A stretch of DNA of 64,000 nucleotides from Anaerolineales bacterium (GTDB lineage Bacteria > Chloroflexota > Anaerolineae > 4572-78 > J111). Below, piece after piece: positions 1,647 to 51,941 of the stretch (positions within the stretch are counted from its first letter, which is position 1; each line of letters opens with the position of its first letter). The notes beneath the pieces are model-generated. The model was not told where the DNA came from, did no database searches, and saw nothing but the letters and a program-made list of their open reading frames with translations. Made by a program: the position numbers and the translations under genes. The stretch spans positions 806,001-870,000 of the forward strand of contig JABTUK010000002.1 of the NCBI GenBank assembly GCA_015075405.1, in the 5' to 3' direction.

Positions 1647-2624
1647 ATGACCACGCCTTTCAAAGCAGTTTTGATTGACTACGATGAAGAACTTTTCACC
1701 CCGCCGGCCTGGATTGGCGGCGAACTGGCCCGCTCCGGGGTCGAGTGGCTGGAGGGCCAGCATCGCACCCCAGAACTGGCCCTGGCTGTGGCCCGCGAGG
1801 CGGATGTAGTCCTGGTGCAGTCGGTCCGTCCTCTGTTGACTCGATCCGTTATCGCTCAACTGGAGCGCTGCCGTTGCATTGTCCGGCTGGGCGTCGGCTA
1901 TGACAGCGTGGATGTGGCGGCGGCCACGGCCCACCAGATTCCTGTTTGTAACGTGCCAGCCTACTGTACCGACGACGTGGCCGACCATACCATCGCCTTG
2001 CTCATGGACAGTCTGCGGCATCTGGCCCGGCAGGACCGCTGGATTCGGGACGGCCGGTGGGACCGCCGCGCAGCCCGGCCGACCCGCCTATTGCAGGGCG
2101 GTACGCTGGGCCTGATCGGGCTGGGCCGGATTGGCCGGGCCGTGGCCCGCCGGGTGCGCGGTTTTGAGCTAACCCTGCTGGTGTCAGACCCTTACCTTGA
2201 CGCCGAAACCATTGCTCAATTTGGCGGTCAAAAAGTGGAACTGGACGAATTATTACAACGCTCCGACTTCATCTCGGCCCACTGCCCCCTCACTGACGAA
2301 ACCTACCACCTTTTGAGCCACCGGGAATTCGAGCAGATGAAAGAGACCGTCTTTATCGTCAACACCAGCCGGGGACCGGTTATTGATGAAGCGGCGCTGG
2401 TAGCAGCCCTGCGCCGTGGACAGGTCGGCGGGGCCGGGTTGGATGTGCTGGAACAGGAGCCGCTGCCCCCTGACTCGCCCCTGCGTGAGTTTGAGCAAGT
2501 TACCATTACCCCCCACGTCTCCGCCTGCGCTCCCGAAAGCCAGGAGAATCTGTATCGGACTGCTTGCGAGATTGTGCTGGATGTGTACAACAACCGCCGA
2601 CCTCCCGGCATCATCAATCAATAA
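1647..2624 (+). CDS. D-isomer specific 2-hydroxyacid dehydrogenase, CtBP-like
   Basis: Cytosolic NAD(P)-dependent oxidoreductase of the D-3-phosphoglycerate/C-terminal-binding-protein class. The 325-residue product shows a Rossmann motif GLGRIG near residues 160-165, an NTSRGP segment with the substrate-binding Arg, and the ITPHVSA segment with the catalytic His near the C-terminus. The opening IDYDEELF is typical of CtBP-like members. The ATG at 1647 follows a GAGGGAGA Shine-Dalgarno; an upstream in-frame ATG would overlap kduD. Its substrate is not evident. Within a uronate operon it may handle a keto or hydroxy acid side product. A second relative closes the operon at 5503. Confidence 0.85.
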   Translation: MTTPFKAVLIDYDEELFTPPAWIGGELARSGVEWLEGQHRTPELALAVAREADVVLVQSVRPLLTRSVIAQLERCRCIVRLGVGYDSVDVAAATAHQIPVCNVPAYCTDDVADHTIALLMDSLRHLARQDRWIRDGRWDRRAARPTRLLQGGTLGLIGLGRIGRAVARRVRGFELTLLVSDPYLDAETIAQFGGQKVELDELLQRSDFISAHCPLTDETYHLLSHREFEQMKETVFIVNTSRGPVIDEAALVAALRRGQVGGAGLDVLEQEPLPPDSPLREFEQVTITPHVSACAPESQENLYRTACEIVLDVYNNRRPPGIINQ

Positions 2625-2690
2625 TTTACGATTTTGGATTTACGATTAAGGCGCTTCCAATCGTAAATGGTAAATCATAAATCGTAAATC
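2623..2690. repeat. Micro-repeat hairpin, word TTTACGATT
   Basis: The left arm has two copies of TTTACGATT (about 2626-2648) and the right arm carries the inverse AATCGTAAAT words (about 2659-2690). The array starts on the last base of the preceding stop codon and ends about 18 nt before the kdgK start. A 23-nt stretch of the left arm recurs at 12062-12086. There is no T-tract, so a simple terminator is unlikely. Confidence 0.8.
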
Positions 2691-3751: not shown

Positions 3752-3827
3752 TAAAAAATAGAAATAAGAAATTAGAAATTAGAGGCAAATGGCCTTTCTT
3801 ATTTCTTATTTCTAAATTCTTTTTTTG
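3752..3827. repeat. Micro-repeat hairpin, word AAATAAGAAAT
   Basis: The left arm is an A-rich array of AGAAAT/AATAAG units (3753-3783). The right arm is the inverse TTCTTATTTC array (3794-3827), with a GC-richer loop between. It lies 5 nt after the kdgK stop and ends 36 nt before the aldolase start. The same word family recurs at 45799-45880. The T-rich right arm could also act as a terminator. Confidence 0.75.
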
Positions 3828-15188: not shown

Positions 15189-15256
15189 GGGAGGCTAAGG
15201 CTGAGGCTAAGGCTAAGAAAGAACAATCCTCAGCCTTAGCCTCAGTCTCAGCCTCA
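15189..15256. repeat. Micro-repeat hairpin, word GAGGCTAAGGCT
   Basis: The left arm is a GAGGCTAAGGCT array (15190-15218). The right arm is the inverse AGCCTTAGCCTCAG array (15228-15256), with a loop of about 10 nt. It lies 25 nt upstream of the SPFH start. Confidence 0.8.
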
Positions 15257-28816: not shown

Positions 28817-29527
28817 ATGGACAAAACCTTCGAGCCGTTCGCCAAAGATGTCCTCCCAAAAAAAATTGCTACCCGTCTGCTTTCCCTGATTAAAGAAAAA
28901 CATCTCCGGGCAGGTGACAAACTACCGCCCGAGCGTGAACTGGCGGCGATGATGCAGGTCAGCCGGCCCTCGCTGCGGGAGGCGCTGCAAGCCCTGGCCC
29001 TGATGAATATCATCGAAATGCGCCAGGGCGATGGCACCTATGTCACCTCGCTGGAGCCGGAGCTGCTGGTTGAACCCCTCGATTTTGTCTTTTCGCTGGA
29101 TGACTCGACCCTGCTGGAACTTTTTGAAGCCCGCAAGATTGTGGAAGTTGGCCTGGTAGGTCTGGCGGCGCAGCGAATTACGGCTGAAGAAATGGCCGAC
29201 CTGGAATGTTGTTTAGCCAAATCCCTGCAAAGCGCCGACGACCCCGACGCCTTTCTCCTGGCCGACCTGGAACTCCATAAAAAAATTGGCCTGGCCGCCC
29301 GCAATCCAATTATGCAGCGTTTTATGGACTCGATCAGCCAACTTGGCCGGGTGAGCCGCGCCAGAACCACCCATATTCCCGGCCTGACCCAACAGAGCGC
29401 CGAAGATCACCGGGCCATTGTGGCTGCGCTCAAAAACCACGATGTGGAGGCGGCCCGCCAGGCCATGCTGCAACATTTAGACAGTGTTGAACGACGACTC
29501 AAAGATTTGGTTTCGTCGCAAAAATGA
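28817..29527 (+). CDS. FadR/GntR-family transcriptional regulator
   Basis: A 236-residue repressor: winged helix-turn-helix (about 12-72) with the signature GDKLPPERELAAMMQVSRPS and a wing ending RQGDGTYV, then an all-helical FCD effector domain (about 85-225) with metal/ligand His residues (LELHKKIG, DHRAIVAAL). I start it at ATG 28817 (MDKTFEPF) because an upstream in-frame start would lie before its own promoter's -10 box. It probably controls the downstream catabolic genes; the effector is likely the pathway's carboxylate substrate. Confidence 0.9.
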   Translation: MDKTFEPFAKDVLPKKIATRLLSLIKEKHLRAGDKLPPERELAAMMQVSRPSLREALQALALMNIIEMRQGDGTYVTSLEPELLVEPLDFVFSLDDSTLLELFEARKIVEVGLVGLAAQRITAEEMADLECCLAKSLQSADDPDAFLLADLELHKKIGLAARNPIMQRFMDSISQLGRVSRARTTHIPGLTQQSAEDHRAIVAALKNHDVEAARQAMLQHLDSVERRLKDLVSSQK

Positions 29528-29594
29528 CCGGGGACCGGAGACCGAAGACCGGCGCTTTCTATTGTTCCCAGTCTCCCGTCCTCCGTCTCCGGTC
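29526..29594. repeat. Micro-repeat hairpin, word GACCGGAGACC
   Basis: The left arm GACCGGGGACCGGAGACC (29526-29543, continuing to 29552) faces an inverse CAGTCTCCCGTCCTCCGTC array ending CCGGTC (29594). It begins inside the regulator's stop codon (TGA) and ends 13 nt before the next ATG. The word is shared with 30047 and 42778. Confidence 0.85.
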
Positions 29595-29607
29595 AATGGT
29601 TTACCTT

Positions 29608-30048
29608 ATGAAAATCGCCAACCACTACACCTTTACCGTACCCAGAGAACGCATCTGGCCTTTGATTTATGATCCGGCGGCGCTGGCGGGCTTGATCCCC
29701 GGCTGCGAAAAGCTGGAGCAGGTCAGCCCCGACGAGTATCGCGGCCAAATCCAACTCCGGCTGCCGGCAGTGGTGGGTACATACCAAACCTACGTAAAAC
29801 TGGTCGAACGCGAAGAACCGAATTATTGTCTTTTTGAAGGTGAAGTGAGCGGCGCGCCCGGTTCTGTCAAGGGCACAGCCTCCTTCAAATTAGAGTCTAT
29901 CAGTGAGGCTGAGACTTTGATGACTTACGAAGGCCAGGGCGTTATCAGCGGCCCGCTGGGCCAGTTAAATTCACGTTTTATTGAAGGCATTGCCAACACC
30001 CTGATCAAGCAGGGGTTGCACAAGTTGAATCAGCAAGCGCAAGAATGA
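29608..30048 (+). CDS. CoxG-like SRPBCC protein
   Basis: A 146-residue protein of the CO dehydrogenase subunit G / SRPBCC (START-like) family: MKIANHYTFTVPRERIWPLI start, then DPAALAGLIPGCEKLEQVSP (about 16-35), and the typical MTYEGQGVISGPLGQLN near the end. CoxG-like proteins help mature or recruit molybdenum hydroxylases and accompany their genes, as here. No Shine-Dalgarno is obvious, since the upstream bases are a repeat hairpin. An ATG at 29596 four codons earlier is possible. Confidence 0.87.
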   Translation: MKIANHYTFTVPRERIWPLIYDPAALAGLIPGCEKLEQVSPDEYRGQIQLRLPAVVGTYQTYVKLVEREEPNYCLFEGEVSGAPGSVKGTASFKLESISEAETLMTYEGQGVISGPLGQLNSRFIEGIANTLIKQGLHKLNQQAQE

Positions 30049-30110
30049 CCGGAGACGGGAGACCGAAGACCGGGGATATTGCTCCGGTCTCCCGTCTCCG
30101 GTCCCCGGTC
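30047..30110. repeat. Micro-repeat hairpin, word GACCGGAGACC
   Basis: GACCGGAGACGGGAGACCG and following units (30047-30074) face the inverse CCGGTCTCCCGTCTCCGGTC array (30083-30110). It starts on the coxG-like stop codon. It is one of three loci with this word. Confidence 0.85.
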
Positions 30111-30140: not shown

Positions 30141-30809
30141 ATGCCCCGCATCGTTGACTTATCCGTCGAAATCGGCGAGGCCACACTCAGCCCGCCGTCG
30201 GTTAACCAGCAGCTCAAGCTGACCAGTTTTCATCGCGGCCCCGGCTTCTGGCAGGCCAGCAAGGTGGAAATGGTGCTGCACACCGGTTCGCACGTGGATT
30301 TTACCAAGCACGTCCAGGCCGACGGCGAAACCGCCGCCGATGTCTCGCTCGACCGGGTCTTTGGCCAGGCCCTGGTGGTGGATTTGAGCTTTGCCCAGGC
30401 CAATCACCAAATTTCGGTGGCGGATATGGAAGCGCACGCCCAGATGGTCCAAAAAGGGGATATTGTGCTGGTCCGCACCGATTGGACCGAGAAGCAGTGG
30501 GGTAACTTTCCCACCTACTACCTGGAGTCGCCCTACTGCGCCCCCGAAGCGGCCCAATGGCTGATTGATCGCGGGGCCAAAGCCATCGGCTTTGACTGCT
30601 TCAGCGAATACTGCGCCCGCCTGCCCGACTTCACCTCGGAGGAGTTTATCATCCATAAAATTATCCTGGAAAATGGGGCCATTTTGATGCAGCAGTTGAC
30701 CAACTTCTCCCAACTACCCGTTGGCCGCCGTTTTCAATTTTTCGCTCCTTTCATTAAAATGAGGGGGGCGGAGGGATCGCCGGCGCGGTTTTTTGCGTTG
30801 CTTGAGTAA
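30141..30809 (+). CDS. Cyclase family protein (kynurenine formamidase-like metal hydrolase)
   Basis: A 222-residue metal-dependent hydrolase of the cyclase superfamily. The motif HTGSHVDFTKH (about 49-59) supplies the usual His and Asp metal ligands, and the late His/Glu region (SEEFIIHKIILENGAI) is also present. Relatives are kynurenine formamidase and isatin hydrolase, which open amide or lactam bonds. Placed between CoxG and the Mo hydroxylase genes, it may act on the hydroxylated N-heterocycle. ATG at 30141 follows CTGGAGG. The stop codon lies in the left arm of the next repeat element. Confidence 0.85.
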   Translation: MPRIVDLSVEIGEATLSPPSVNQQLKLTSFHRGPGFWQASKVEMVLHTGSHVDFTKHVQADGETAADVSLDRVFGQALVVDLSFAQANHQISVADMEAHAQMVQKGDIVLVRTDWTEKQWGNFPTYYLESPYCAPEAAQWLIDRGAKAIGFDCFSEYCARLPDFTSEEFIIHKIILENGAILMQQLTNFSQLPVGRRFQFFAPFIKMRGAEGSPARFFALLE

Positions 30810-31271
30810 CAAGTAGCAGGGTAGCAGGTAGCAGGGTAGCAAAAGAGAGAGAAGTGTATGTCCAGTTATGAAGACTCAGAGCTTTATAAATTGGCTAAGC
30901 AAATGGCGGTTGAGATTCATAAGATGACGCTGGACGAACTCCCAAAATTTGAGATGTATGAGCAAGGTTCTCAAATTCGCCGTTCCAGCAAATCTATTGT
31001 TGCCAATTTCGTTGAAGGGTACGGGCGGCGGCATTACAAAGCTGATATATCAAGTTCATGACTTACGCCCTTGCTTCTTGTGATGAGACAAAAGCTCACT
31101 TGGAGTTATTGCACGAAACTGGCTCACTGTCTCCCGAAAGATTTCAATATTTTTACGGCAATTATCGTAAAATCGGCGCAATGCTCTACAATTTACGCCA
31201 ATCCGTCATAAGCGGACACGCAAACTAACATTTAATCTGCAACCCTGCTACTCTGCTACCTTGTTACTCTG
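30804..31271. mobile_element. Micro-repeat inverted element carrying a four-helix-bundle gene
   Basis: The left arm is an array of the GTAGCAGG word from GAGTAACAAG to GGTAGC (30804-30840). The right arm, CCCTGCTACTCTGCTACC followed by TTGTTACTC (31243-31269), is its inverse complement over about 30 nt. Between them is only the S23-type gene. The left end overlaps the cyclase stop codon; the right end is 10 nt before the next Shine-Dalgarno. The layout resembles 23S rRNA intervening sequences, which have paired arms around a four-helix-bundle ORF, but here it is between protein genes. Confidence 0.65.
30858..31228 (+). CDS. Four-helix-bundle protein, S23/IVS type (one frameshift)
   Basis: The start [20 protein letters not shown] and the segment [20 protein letters not shown] are diagnostic of the 23S rRNA intervening-sequence / Avd-like four-helix-bundle family. 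The reading breaks near 31045 (GATATATC) and resumes in another frame from about 31050 ([19 protein letters not shown]) to the stop at 31228. Restoring one T gives a normal protein of about 123 residues. Avd-type relatives bind nucleic acid or reverse transcriptase; no such partner lies nearby. Start ATG 30858 follows GAGAGAGAAG. Confidence 0.75.
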
Positions 31272-31294
31272 ATTTCACCAAAGGAGGTGTCAAT

Positions 31295-33985: not shown

Positions 33986-34982
33986 AAAACGCGGCGTCGG
34001 CATGGCCGCCGTCAATTATCCTACCGGCATGAACCTGGGCGGCGACCCGTCCCAGGCGTTGATCCACTCGACTACCACCGGCACCTTTGTCATCAGCCTG
34101 TCCAGCACCGATTTGGGCCAGGGCCTCAAAACAGTCATCGCCCAGATTGGAGCCGAGGCGCTGGGCGTGCCCTTTGAAAACGTGCTGATTGACACCGCCG
34201 ACTCCGATACCGGCCCGCACTGCATGGGTACCTTCGCCAGCCGGGCCACCCACCGGGTCGGCAATGCGGTCATCGCCGCCGCCCAAGAAGCCCGCAAGGT
34301 GATGCTGGAAGTGGCCGGCGACGAGCTGGAGGTCAGCCCCGACGACCTGGAAACCGACGGCCAGGGCAATATCCGGGTCAAAGGCTCGCCCGACCGTTCG
34401 ATCAACATCGTTAACCTGGCCCTGGCCGCCCACTTCAAGTACGGCAAAACCATCTCCGGGCGGGGCATGTTCATGAAGCCCAAGAGCGAGGTGGACCCCG
34501 AAACCGGGGCCATGGATCCCGACTCGACCGAGGCCCACGCCTGCACCGTGGCCGAGGTGGAGGTGGATACCGAAACCGGCGAAGTGACCGTGTTGAGCCT
34601 CAAAAGCGCCTACGAAATCGGCTGCGAGGTCAACCCGGCGCTGGTCAAAGGGCAGATCACCGGCGGCTCCTTTATGGGTATGGCTCACGCCCTGTACGAA
34701 ACCACCGCGCCCTATTATCCACTCCAGGAGCACAACCCTAGCAGCTTCAGCGAGTACGTGCTGCCTGGTCCCACCGAACTGCCGGTCATTGAAAGTGTCG
34801 TTTTGGAATATCCCTCGTCCAACGGCCCGTTTGGGGTCAAAGGCGTCGGTGAGATGACCGCCAACCCGCCCATCCCGGCCATTGTCAACGCCATTTATAA
34901 CGCTATCGGCGTGCGCATCACCAGCCTGCCGGTCACGCCGGAGAAGATACTAAGGGCGTTAGAGGAGAAAGAAGAAACGTGA
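33978..34982 (+). CDS. Molybdenum hydroxylase Mo-cofactor subunit, C-terminal part (NdhM-like)
   Basis: A 334-residue subunit equal to the C-terminal part of a xanthine dehydrogenase-type Mo subunit. It has the cofactor loop SSTDLGQGLKTVIAQI (about 33-48) and the GVKGVGEM motif with the catalytic Glu (about 292-299). The ATG at 33978 follows TGGAGG and overlaps the upstream gene by 8 nt in a different frame. A fresh start with Shine-Dalgarno argues for translational coupling rather than a sequencing frameshift. Its stop codon (TGA) is the first base set of a micro-repeat hairpin. Confidence 0.87.
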   Translation: MAKKRGVGMAAVNYPTGMNLGGDPSQALIHSTTTGTFVISLSSTDLGQGLKTVIAQIGAEALGVPFENVLIDTADSDTGPHCMGTFASRATHRVGNAVIAAAQEARKVMLEVAGDELEVSPDDLETDGQGNIRVKGSPDRSINIVNLALAAHFKYGKTISGRGMFMKPKSEVDPETGAMDPDSTEAHACTVAEVEVDTETGEVTVLSLKSAYEIGCEVNPALVKGQITGGSFMGMAHALYETTAPYYPLQEHNPSSFSEYVLPGPTELPVIESVVLEYPSSNGPFGVKGVGEMTANPPIPAIVNAIYNAIGVRITSLPVTPEKILRALEEKEET

Positions 34983-35046
34983 GGCGAGGAGGCGAGGAGG
35001 CGAGTTTCTTTTCATCGCGTCTTCGCCTCACTTGTCCTCGCCTCAT
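34979..35046. repeat. Micro-repeat hairpin, word GAGGCGAGGA
   Basis: GTGAGGCGAGGAGGCGAGG and one more unit (34979-35004) face TCTTCGCCTCACTTG and CCTCGCCTCAT (35020-35046). The array includes the Mo-subunit stop codon. The word is shared with 17867-17940. Confidence 0.85.
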
Positions 35047-40275: not shown

Positions 40276-40337
40276 TGATACGTGATACGTGATGCGTGAG
40301 GATAAGAGACTCACGTATCACGCATCACGTATCACGC
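40276..40337. repeat. Micro-repeat hairpin, word ATACGTGAT
   Basis: TGATACGTGATACGTGATG (40276-40294) faces the inverse TCACGTATCACGCATCACG array (40311-40337). The right arm encodes the last residues (VIRDA) and stop of the minus-strand kinase gene, so the element overlaps coding sequence. Confidence 0.85.
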
Positions 40338-42777: not shown

Positions 42778-42842
42778 GACCGGGGACGGGAGACCGGAGA
42801 CCGATGATAGATACCGGTCATCGGTCTCCGGTCTGCGGTCAT
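42778..42842. repeat. Micro-repeat hairpin, word GACCGGAGACC
   Basis: GACCGGGGACGGGAGACCGG and further units (42778-42808) face the inverse CCGGTCATCGGTCTCCGGTC array (42814-42842). It lies just upstream of the CBS gene Shine-Dalgarno. Third locus with this word, 12.7 kb from the others. Confidence 0.85.
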
Positions 42843-50426: not shown

Positions 50427-51941
50427 TCACCTGCGAGCAAAAACGGTTGCCATCTTATCCTGGTAGAGGGTATCCCAGGCAGGGTCGCCCTTAAGAAATC
50501 GGGCCAGGGTGCTATCGCTCTCTATCAACACCAGATTAACCCCATCCTCAGCCAGCGCCTGCTGCCAGCCCTCGCCGCCGGAAACCACGTCGAGATAGCG
50601 CCGGATGAAGACATCATCGTATAAATCGGTGCGGCCATCAATGTAGACCGGATAATCCGGCCATAGTTTGAAGATGAGATACCCGCCCCAATTATAACTG
50701 TTGAAAAGCGGGCCGGCCGGCCTGGTTTGCTGGATAAATTCGACGGCTTTGGCCGGCAGCCCCTCTTGTTCCGCTTTGATGGCCTCCTGTGGATTCAGGG
50801 CTATGCCTATTTTCAACAGCGCAGCGAAGACAACCAACCCCAACAAAATCCAATTGAGGCGAGAGGAAGAAAGGGAACTGGTAGGAACTGAGGGAACTAA
50901 AGGAACTTGGGAAGTTTCCTCAGTTCCCTCAAGTTCCCTTGAGACCCTTTTTCTCTCTCCCGGCAGATACTGCCCCCAGGCCGCATCGGTGGAGCGGGCC
51001 AGGGCGGGCACGGCCAGCAGGCCAAACAGGCCGATGTTGCGGGCCGCAAAAAGGCTCCAAAATGTCCACAGGCCCAATACAGCCAGGTCGGTCCAATCGG
51101 CCCGGCGGGTCGAGCGGCCCAGCGCCGCCAGGGTCAGCAGCAGCATGCCAATAAACGGCCAGGTAAAAAGCAGGTGGAAATCGGGGCTGCGCCACTCCTG
51201 GATAAAATCGCGCAGCGCGCCAATACCGACGGTGCGGAAAGGGTAAAGCCACATCTGCCAGCCGTGCGGGTTGACCACCACCAGGGCAAAACCGATAGCC
51301 CCCACCACCAGCAACGGGCCAAGCTGCGGCCAGGCGACCACCGGGTCTTCGCTGTGACCGGTCAGATTGTTGAAAATTTCTCCGACGATGTAAACACCTA
51401 GCAGCATAAAGGCAATAGCATAGCCGCCGTGAATGTTGACCCACAGCAGCACAATCAGCGGGAAGGCGTAAATCCAGCGCGAGCCGGCCCGCTTGTACTT
51501 TTCGAGCAGCACCAGCACCAGACCGGCCAGCAAGAAAGAAACCATCTGCGGCCGGGCCACCCAAATGACGGCCGAGGTAATCGCCCCCAAAATCATGACA
51601 AAGGCACGGATGTATAAATTGCCCGGCGTCACCTGCCAGACCAGCCCAAAGGTCAGCGTGACCAACGCTGCCAGCCCCAGGCTCAGGCCCGGCCAGCCGC
51701 CCAGGGCGTATAGGCTGTACCAAAAAACCTGGGCCAGCCAGCCGTGATCAATCCAGGCTGCGCCGGCGCGGGTGTGGGAAAAGGGGTCGGTGGTGGGCAC
51801 GGTTTGATTTTCCAGGATATATTGGCCGGAGCGCAGATGCCACCAGGTATCGGTGTCGGCGGGCAGACGGACGGCCATGGTGAAGATGGCGATAAAGACA
51901 ATCGCTATCAGCAGACGGGGGAGGGTCAAAGACCTGTTCAT
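50427..51941 (-). CDS. Polytopic membrane protein, possible glycosyltransferase-C-like
   Basis: A 504-residue protein with about ten to eleven membrane helices and an early periplasmic loop rich in Asp and Trp (LPADTDTWWHLRSGQYILE, then DHGWLAQVFWYSLYALGGWP), reminiscent of GT-C/PMT-type proteins, though no family motif is certain. Helices run to about residue 390; the C-terminal ~110 residues form a soluble domain (YIDGRTDLYDDVFIRRYLDV). Residues about 334-357 (RELEGTEETSQVPLVPSVP) are encoded by a micro-repeat hairpin inserted in frame. Start ATG 51941 overlaps the upstream DUF5615 gene end. Confidence 0.72.
   Translation of the reverse strand: MNRSLTLPRLLIAIVFIAIFTMAVRLPADTDTWWHLRSGQYILENQTVPTTDPFSHTRAGAAWIDHGWLAQVFWYSLYALGGWPGLSLGLAALVTLTFGLVWQVTPGNLYIRAFVMILGAITSAVIWVARPQMVSFLLAGLVLVLLEKYKRAGSRWIYAFPLIVLLWVNIHGGYAIAFMLLGVYIVGEIFNNLTGHSEDPVVAWPQLGPLLVVGAIGFALVVVNPHGWQMWLYPFRTVGIGALRDFIQEWRSPDFHLLFTWPFIGMLLLTLAALGRSTRRADWTDLAVLGLWTFWSLFAARNIGLFGLLAVPALARSTDAAWGQYLPGERKRVSRELEGTEETSQVPLVPSVPTSSLSSSRLNWILLGLVVFAALLKIGIALNPQEAIKAEQEGLPAKAVEFIQQTRPAGPLFNSYNWGGYLIFKLWPDYPVYIDGRTDLYDDVFIRRYLDVVSGGEGWQQALAEDGVNLVLIESDSTLARFLKGDPAWDTLYQDKMATVFARR
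50873..50942. repeat. Micro-repeat hairpin inside a coding gene
   Basis: GGGAACTGGTAGGAACTGAG and further GGAACT units (50874-50909) face TTTCCTCAGTTCCCTCAAG and TTCCC (50915-50938). The length keeps the reading frame of the membrane protein gene. Same word as 50270-50328. Confidence 0.8.

Follow-up and report, generated by a model that had tools for sequence, protein, structure and literature searches.

S23-type four-helix-bundle genes and their inverted micro-repeat arms are inherited, inserted and lost as single units

Introduction

Proteins of the S23 family (four-helix-bundle proteins; PF05635, TIGR02436) are encoded in intervening sequences (IVSs) of 23S ribosomal RNA (rRNA) in Leptospira, Coxiella and Salmonella, elements of ~430 nt whose inverted flanks pair in RNA. 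In Coxiella, tandem heptamers precede the S23 open reading frame (ORF) in varying number, with GACAGAT units right before the ORF, and RNase III cuts at the first repeat; the origin and function of the IVS are described as unclear (PMC4990558). The idea of IVS mobility has a precedent in Ralph and McClelland (1993), who, in the citation given by PMC4990558, proposed that the IVS was once mobile and that its ORF was needed for mobility. Here, we analyse an S23-type gene between two inverted micro-repeat arms in a 64,000-nucleotide stretch of an Anaerolineales genome (the window), together with S23 genes from the same genome and from other phyla. Arms and gene resemble the IVS in protein family, pairing flanks and size. 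In contrast to the IVS, the loci studied here are embedded among protein-coding genes, in most cases between members of an operon; every S23 lineage has arms made of its own tandem micro-repeats, and copies without the gene exist as well.

Several other systems share part of this architecture. In REPIN/RAYT (TnpA-REP) systems, each motif family has one protein gene, located within its own palindromes, and many intergenic gene-less copies (PMC8049555, PMC3116915). Gene-less copies are likewise numerous and dispersed in the genome studied here, and few in others; however, S23 is the sole gene between the arms, with no HUH/Y1 tyrosine transposase. The arms of the palindromes are built of degenerate heptamers in tandem, and about 20 families occur side by side in one genome. 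Cyanobacterial short tandemly repeated repetitive (STRR) sequences and other bacterial heptamer repeats (TAACTGA, GGGNATC) likewise form intergenic arrays, often as inverted pairs. Xanthomonas harbours 70-75 convergent heptamer pairs (PMC4692102), and TAACTGA is an unexplained repeat of Beggiatoaceae and cyanobacteria for which horizontal transmission was noted but "no mechanism is evident" (PMC4679880); polymerase slippage was proposed. Neither of these two papers names an associated gene or a spreading mechanism, and S23 is mentioned in neither. The reverse complement of the 5' arm of one S23 element in our survey (L115), TAACTGATAACTGATAACTGA, is the TAACTGA heptamer. Miniature inverted-repeat transposable elements and insertion sequences are also discrete insertions within inverted repeats with gene-less derivatives, whereas S23 elements have no transposase and no fixed terminal sequence, and a target duplication of constant length appears to be absent. 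Finally, the Avd proteins of diversity-generating retroelements (DGRs) belong to the same four-helix-bundle superfamily, but in the genome studied here Avd adjoins a reverse transcriptase (RT), exceeds the NF033474 cut-off and is armless.

The S23 element of the window

The element comprises, all on the plus strand, a 5' arm of tandem GTAGCAGG/GTAGCAG micro-repeats with the G-rich strand first (30804..30841; GAGTAACAAGTAGCAGGGTAGCAGGTAGCAGGGTAGCA), an S23 gene (30858..31228) and a 3' arm (31237..31269; CCTGCTACTCTGCTACCTTGTTACTC) that is the inverse complement of the first. An earlier, sequence-only reading of this stretch had described such arms around an S23-type gene; a repeat search of the window confirmed the arrangement, with the coordinates corrected to those above and the gene found to be frameshifted. 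The arms share three inverted matches, 93-94% over 14-16 nt each (aligned lengths ~31 and 33 nt), and pair in the predicted RNA fold of 30804-31275 (z = -4.0). No gene except S23 lies between them, and the upstream ORF (30141-30809) has its stop codon inside the 5' arm. The element sits between two protein-coding ORFs, and so is not lodged in a 23S rRNA helix as an IVS is.

A frameshift of one base near 31047, which reflects either decay or an assembly indel error, disrupts the gene. The first frame (30858-31058, P0001) corresponds to PF05635 positions 1-58 and, at 53.2 bits (cut-off 33.8), belongs to the S23 family; the second (31049-31228, P0002) corresponds to positions 59-105 and scores 33.5 bits, just under the same cut-off, and 36.1 bits with TIGR02436 (cut-off 24). 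Compared over the N-terminal part, homologues in genomes G006 (82% identical) and G003 (73%) occupy unrelated loci and carry GTAGCA-type repeats alike, most clearly in the 3' arm. The insertion site of the window element holds another, gene-less hairpin in G001 (~82-84% identical), and yet another in G009. By itself, GTAGCAGG is barely above chance in the window (4 matches against 1.25 expected); the significance of the arms derives from the genome-wide and cross-phylum tests described below, not from these counts.

Inverted arms are a general feature of S23 genes

In the host genome (G000; 9.0 Mb, 7 contigs; window at G000:C2:806001-870000), a PF05635 profile search returned 23 matches corresponding to 21 genes, two of them frameshift-split. 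When their flanks were read, inverted micro-repeat arms were found at 20 of these 21 S23-type genes, each with a motif of its own: TAGGGTC, CAGTAGT, GTAGACG, CAGTGAT, GGAGTAA, GTGTCAA, GGCTAA, TTGGAAGG, GGCGAGGA, GACCGGA, GGATGAA, GGGAACT, TTTACGA, GGTGCGT, AAATTAG, GGAGCAGG and GGCGAAT, among others. The sole armless gene (L023) lies immediately 3' of the only RT of the genome, that of a DGR (L024; both in G000:C5:632014-633198), and is a true DGR Avd, scoring 96 bits with NF033474 against a cut-off of 80. The arm-flanked S23 protein of L004 reached 30 bits, under this Avd equivalog cut-off.

For the cross-phylum survey, S23 loci were drawn from Chloroflexota genomes and 80 named records without regard to their flanks. 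The sample was picked by protein similarity, is non-random and includes many metagenome-assembled genomes; phyla of named records were assigned from record titles. Arms were scored as present when the inverted match between upstream and downstream flanks was at least 18, and the other ORFs at the same loci served as controls. Inverted arms were detected at 164 of 205 distinct S23 genes compared with 58 of 735 control ORFs (Fisher p = 4e-92), bearing out the expectation that S23 genes are so flanked beyond other genes. Mismatched pairs of upstream and downstream flanks resembled the controls (median score 12, against 23). An unbiased scan of 1268 other ORFs yielded just 18 with periodic inverted arms, mostly 74%-GC noise from one genome; two of them were GxxExxY genes, recognised from sequence. 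A search of phage records for S23 gave no match.

Arm-bearing named records span about 18 phyla, including Acidobacteriota, Bacteroidota, Cyanobacteriota, Nitrospirota, Planctomycetota, Verrucomicrobiota and Desulfobacterota. The arm unit is 7 nt long in 118 of 164 elements, followed by 8, 9-10 and 6 nt, with a median of ~5 units per array side, and the arm proximal to the start codon has more G than C in 145 of 164. A plain arm-gene-arm layout was found at 126 of 158 loci; the other 32 have a complete hairpin on at least one side, some on both. Of the 123 elements that have near neighbours, 115 follow an upstream gene of the same direction (382 of 538 controls; p 9e-9), and the stop codon of that gene is the usual starting point of the arm (median -5 nt). 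On annotated plasmids, S23 loci are situated between coding sequences.

Arms and gene are inherited, inserted and lost together

Arms and S23 gene pass between loci as a single inherited unit. Among S23 proteins 70-79% identical, from different genomes and with no common flanking gene, the arm motif is shared in 50% of pairs, falling to 0.1-0.3% of pairs under 50% identity, and divergent S23 genes inside one genome have different arms. Arm similarity was higher within an element than between related elements (0.65 vs 0.50; 219 of 287 pairs), which hints at arm homogenisation; this measure selects periodic segments and is not relied on here.

Comparison of matched sites showed the element to be a discrete insertion whose gain or loss involves the entire block. 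At a filled site, Trichormus variabilis plasmid C and Scytonema carry AAATCAG...S23...TTCTTCTTT, whereas in Fremyella and Nostoc linckia, with flanks ~98% identical to those of the filled plasmids, exactly the arm-gene-arm block (~430 bp) is missing: the empty site reads AAAAAGTAATTAACAAATA and the filled one AAAAAGTAAT-[element]-GTAATTAACAAATA. Nostoc plasmids provided another family in which filled sites can be compared with empty ones. Empty plasmid sites A and C contain no array whatever, and arms and gene come together. At the insertion site of the AAATCAG element, Brasilonema has a gene-less GGAGTCA hairpin and Nostoc (C052) a decayed element. Among relatives, the site upstream of argF is occupied by a GGCTAA element in G000 and G003, by one hairpin without a gene in G001 and by half of an array in G004; G008 has another S23 element there, armed with TTTACGA repeats and encoding a protein similar to that of the TTTACGA element of the host (L015). 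The exact presence or absence of the block on plasmids, together with the co-inheritance of arms and protein, upholds the earlier proposal that the full element is arms plus gene.

Some further observations were made at these and similar loci. In L276 (G008:C111), the arm region and the gene end are tandemly repeated several times 3' of a TTTACGA-type S23 gene. The loop of the GGAGTCA hairpin on the Brasilonema plasmid (L358, ~1000-1080) is CCCGCCCACGGCGCTGCC, by eye unrelated to the arm repeats. On a Picosynechococcus PCC 7003 plasmid (L352), cas10 and cmr3 of a type III-B CRISPR operon are separated by an S23 element; at the same spot (L359, L360), PCC 7002 is without the element and a Uma2-family gene is present in Synechocystis PCC 7338. 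Insertions of this kind could account for an apparent CRISPR linkage of S23 proteins.

Gene-less hairpins share the motifs of the host S23 arms

In 464 kb of the host genome, 51 micro-periodic hairpins were found, 42 of them intergenic. Most (46 of 51) match host S23 arms better than the arms of other genomes (Wilcoxon p 4e-9), which, along with the gene-less cases at the argF site and in Brasilonema, agrees with the view of the sequence-only reading that the other hairpins are gene-less derivatives. Four S23-free genomes showed essentially no intergenic micro-repeat hairpins apart from GC-rich noise in G078; an early count of many periodic hairpins in such genomes was rejected as 74%-GC coding noise from that genome. 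Other S23-bearing genomes have 0 to 60 hairpins per Mb, and high hairpin copy number is a trait of the host lineage, not of every S23 host.

Oriented by their G-rich arm relative to the neighbouring gene, gene-less hairpins showed no bias in this small count (13 same, 18 opposite), which is consistent with orientation-free DNA insertion combined with selection for S23 expression. Since these hairpins are unoriented, the co-direction of S23 elements with the upstream gene is probably due to selection for S23 being expressed by read-through and not to the insertion step; orientation-dependent insertion was rejected on the same grounds.

A second protein family with the same architecture

GxxExxY genes (PF13366, PDDEXK_3) are unrelated to S23, yet show the same arm-gene-arm architecture. 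In 12 genomes, inverted micro-repeat arms were found at 19 of 25 PF13366 genes compared with 9% of mismatched pairs. Their units are 8-10 nt long, as in CACAGAGGA, CGCAGATTA and CACAAAGGA (loci L318-L347). Two armed ORFs, L174:5934-6300 and L200:3632-4028, were placed in this family by eye. This likeness predicts a broader class of such elements.

Proposed mechanism and alternative explanations

Arms and gene make up one discrete unit that is inherited, can insert and can be lost, and gene-less hairpins of the host share its motifs. We consider it reasonably likely that these are REPIN/RAYT-like miniature mobile elements in which S23 serves as the recognition factor, and that the window locus is a decayed copy of ~430 bp. 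S23, we infer, would take an active part in the spread of the element by recognising the repeat of its own lineage, as hairpin DNA or as RNA. Its relatives 2gsc and 2rld in the PDB have five chains each which, set beside arrays of ~5 units, suggests one unit per subunit, and each subunit of an S23 pentamer may contact one heptamer. Binding would let host replication or repair enzymes, presumably responsible for the DNA chemistry, copy the palindrome into further sites, either in cis together with the gene or in trans to give hairpins without it, as RAYT does for REPINs. In RNA, the paired arms would allow RNase III to excise the element from the host transcript, so that insertion between operon genes or in rRNA could be tolerated. 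S23 would survive mainly 3' of a co-directional gene, where read-through transcription presumably expresses it.

Several points weigh against this proposal. We know of no catalytic residues in S23 proteins, and GxxExxY elements show the same design without S23. Mobility is read from the comparison of filled and empty sites. The junctions vary: site A has a 5-bp duplication, C has lost 1 bp and D ~16 bp, and pNsp_c shows ~3 bp plus filler. A fixed target-site duplication, suggested by GTAAT at site A, failed at the other three, and no standard transposase signature can therefore be claimed. Gene-less hairpins are numerous in G000 alone and scarce or absent in most sampled S23-bearing genomes, the orientation count is small, and gene-less hairpins may come from gene loss instead of copying in trans. 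Armless S23 genes and arrays in S23-free genomes had both been named beforehand as observations that would speak against the association; the former exist, as ~20% of surveyed S23 genes have no detectable arms, and of the latter essentially none were found, save the 74%-GC noise.

As a tentative extension, S23 elements might represent a bacteria-wide class without transposase or RT, in which a non-catalytic, pentameric S23 reads its own repeats and host enzymes copy the palindromes, with the PD-(D/E)XK-type GxxExxY elements as a sister class; this class might be the source of both heptamer arrays and rRNA IVSs. The parallel with the 23S rRNA IVS, drawn in advance, fits the heptamers before the S23 ORF of Coxiella and their cutting by RNase III (PMC4990558), and the IVS is probably the rRNA-resident form of the S23 element. 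In the open-access literature, no paper was found tying non-rRNA S23 genes to micro-repeat arms, nor one describing a genome-wide, arm-specific S23 system that yields gene-less hairpins. The heptamer arrays of cyanobacteria, Xanthomonas, Beggiatoaceae and others have lacked an agreed source; a class of S23 genes within cognate arms would address it as well as the origin of the IVS, would give a testable function to the very common annotation "four helix bundle protein", and would constitute a mobile element without a recognised recombinase.

Alternatively, this could be an RNA element whose arms are sites of RNase III processing and/or S23 autoregulation, spreading passively by horizontal transfer and recombination between repeats, while S23 regulates or protects RNA. 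The sense orientation 3' of genes, the strong RNA fold of the window element and the excision of the Coxiella IVS by RNase III (PMC4990558) agree with it. We nevertheless regard it as unlikely, since clean insertions at unrelated sites with flanks ~98% identical, and lineage-specific motifs with matching gene-less hairpins, exceed what passive recombination would give, and the gene-less hairpins are unoriented relative to transcription. Less probable still is that S23 genes home into existing micro-repeat hairpins made by polymerase slippage and fold-back copying. The argF site, a single hairpin in its empty state but with a hairpin on each side of the gene in its filled state, and the complete hairpins flanking some loci (one or both sides at 32 of 158) would suit such homing, but the empty plasmid sites A and C are free of any array and the simple arm-gene-arm form prevails (126 of 158).

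The suggestion of the earlier reading that S23 assists an RT encoded elsewhere in the genome, like Avd in DGRs, did not hold and appears very improbable. S23 is weakly similar to the Avd profile (the 30 bits given above), but the true Avd beside its RT is armless, the arm-flanked S23 elements of the host have no adjacent RT, and PF00078 profile searches for RT found none in G082 (22 S23 genes, 99% complete), G073, G168, G097, G009, G039 or G154, with no match in genomes carrying 22, 11, 10 and 9 S23 genes. Low-complexity intergenic DNA lying around S23 genes by chance, which the short arms of the window and the heptamer richness of some genomes might bring to mind, is practically dismissed by the same-locus controls, the mismatched pairs and the 1268-ORF scan.

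Other hairpins of the window

Besides the S23 element, the window contains gene-less hairpins, all given on the plus strand, which correspond to S23 element families of the host genome. These are a TTTACGATT hairpin at 2624..2689 (family of L015), a AGAAATTA hairpin at 3759..3814 (L017), a GAGGCTAAGGCT hairpin at 15191..15255 (L009), a GGCGAGGA hairpin at 34971..35039 (motif matched to L011 by eye), a GGAGACC hairpin at 42785..42840 (L012) and a GGGAACT hairpin at 50871..50940 (L014). Two more hairpins of the GGAGACC family, with the motif of L012, lie upstream (29526..29595) and downstream (30046..30110) of a CoxG-like ORF (29593-30048), a non-S23 gene that is thus flanked by two complete hairpins. 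A TGATACGTGATGCGTGAG hairpin at 40276-40336 has a motif with no clear S23 partner in the host genome, and represents either an orphan family or one whose gene was lost.
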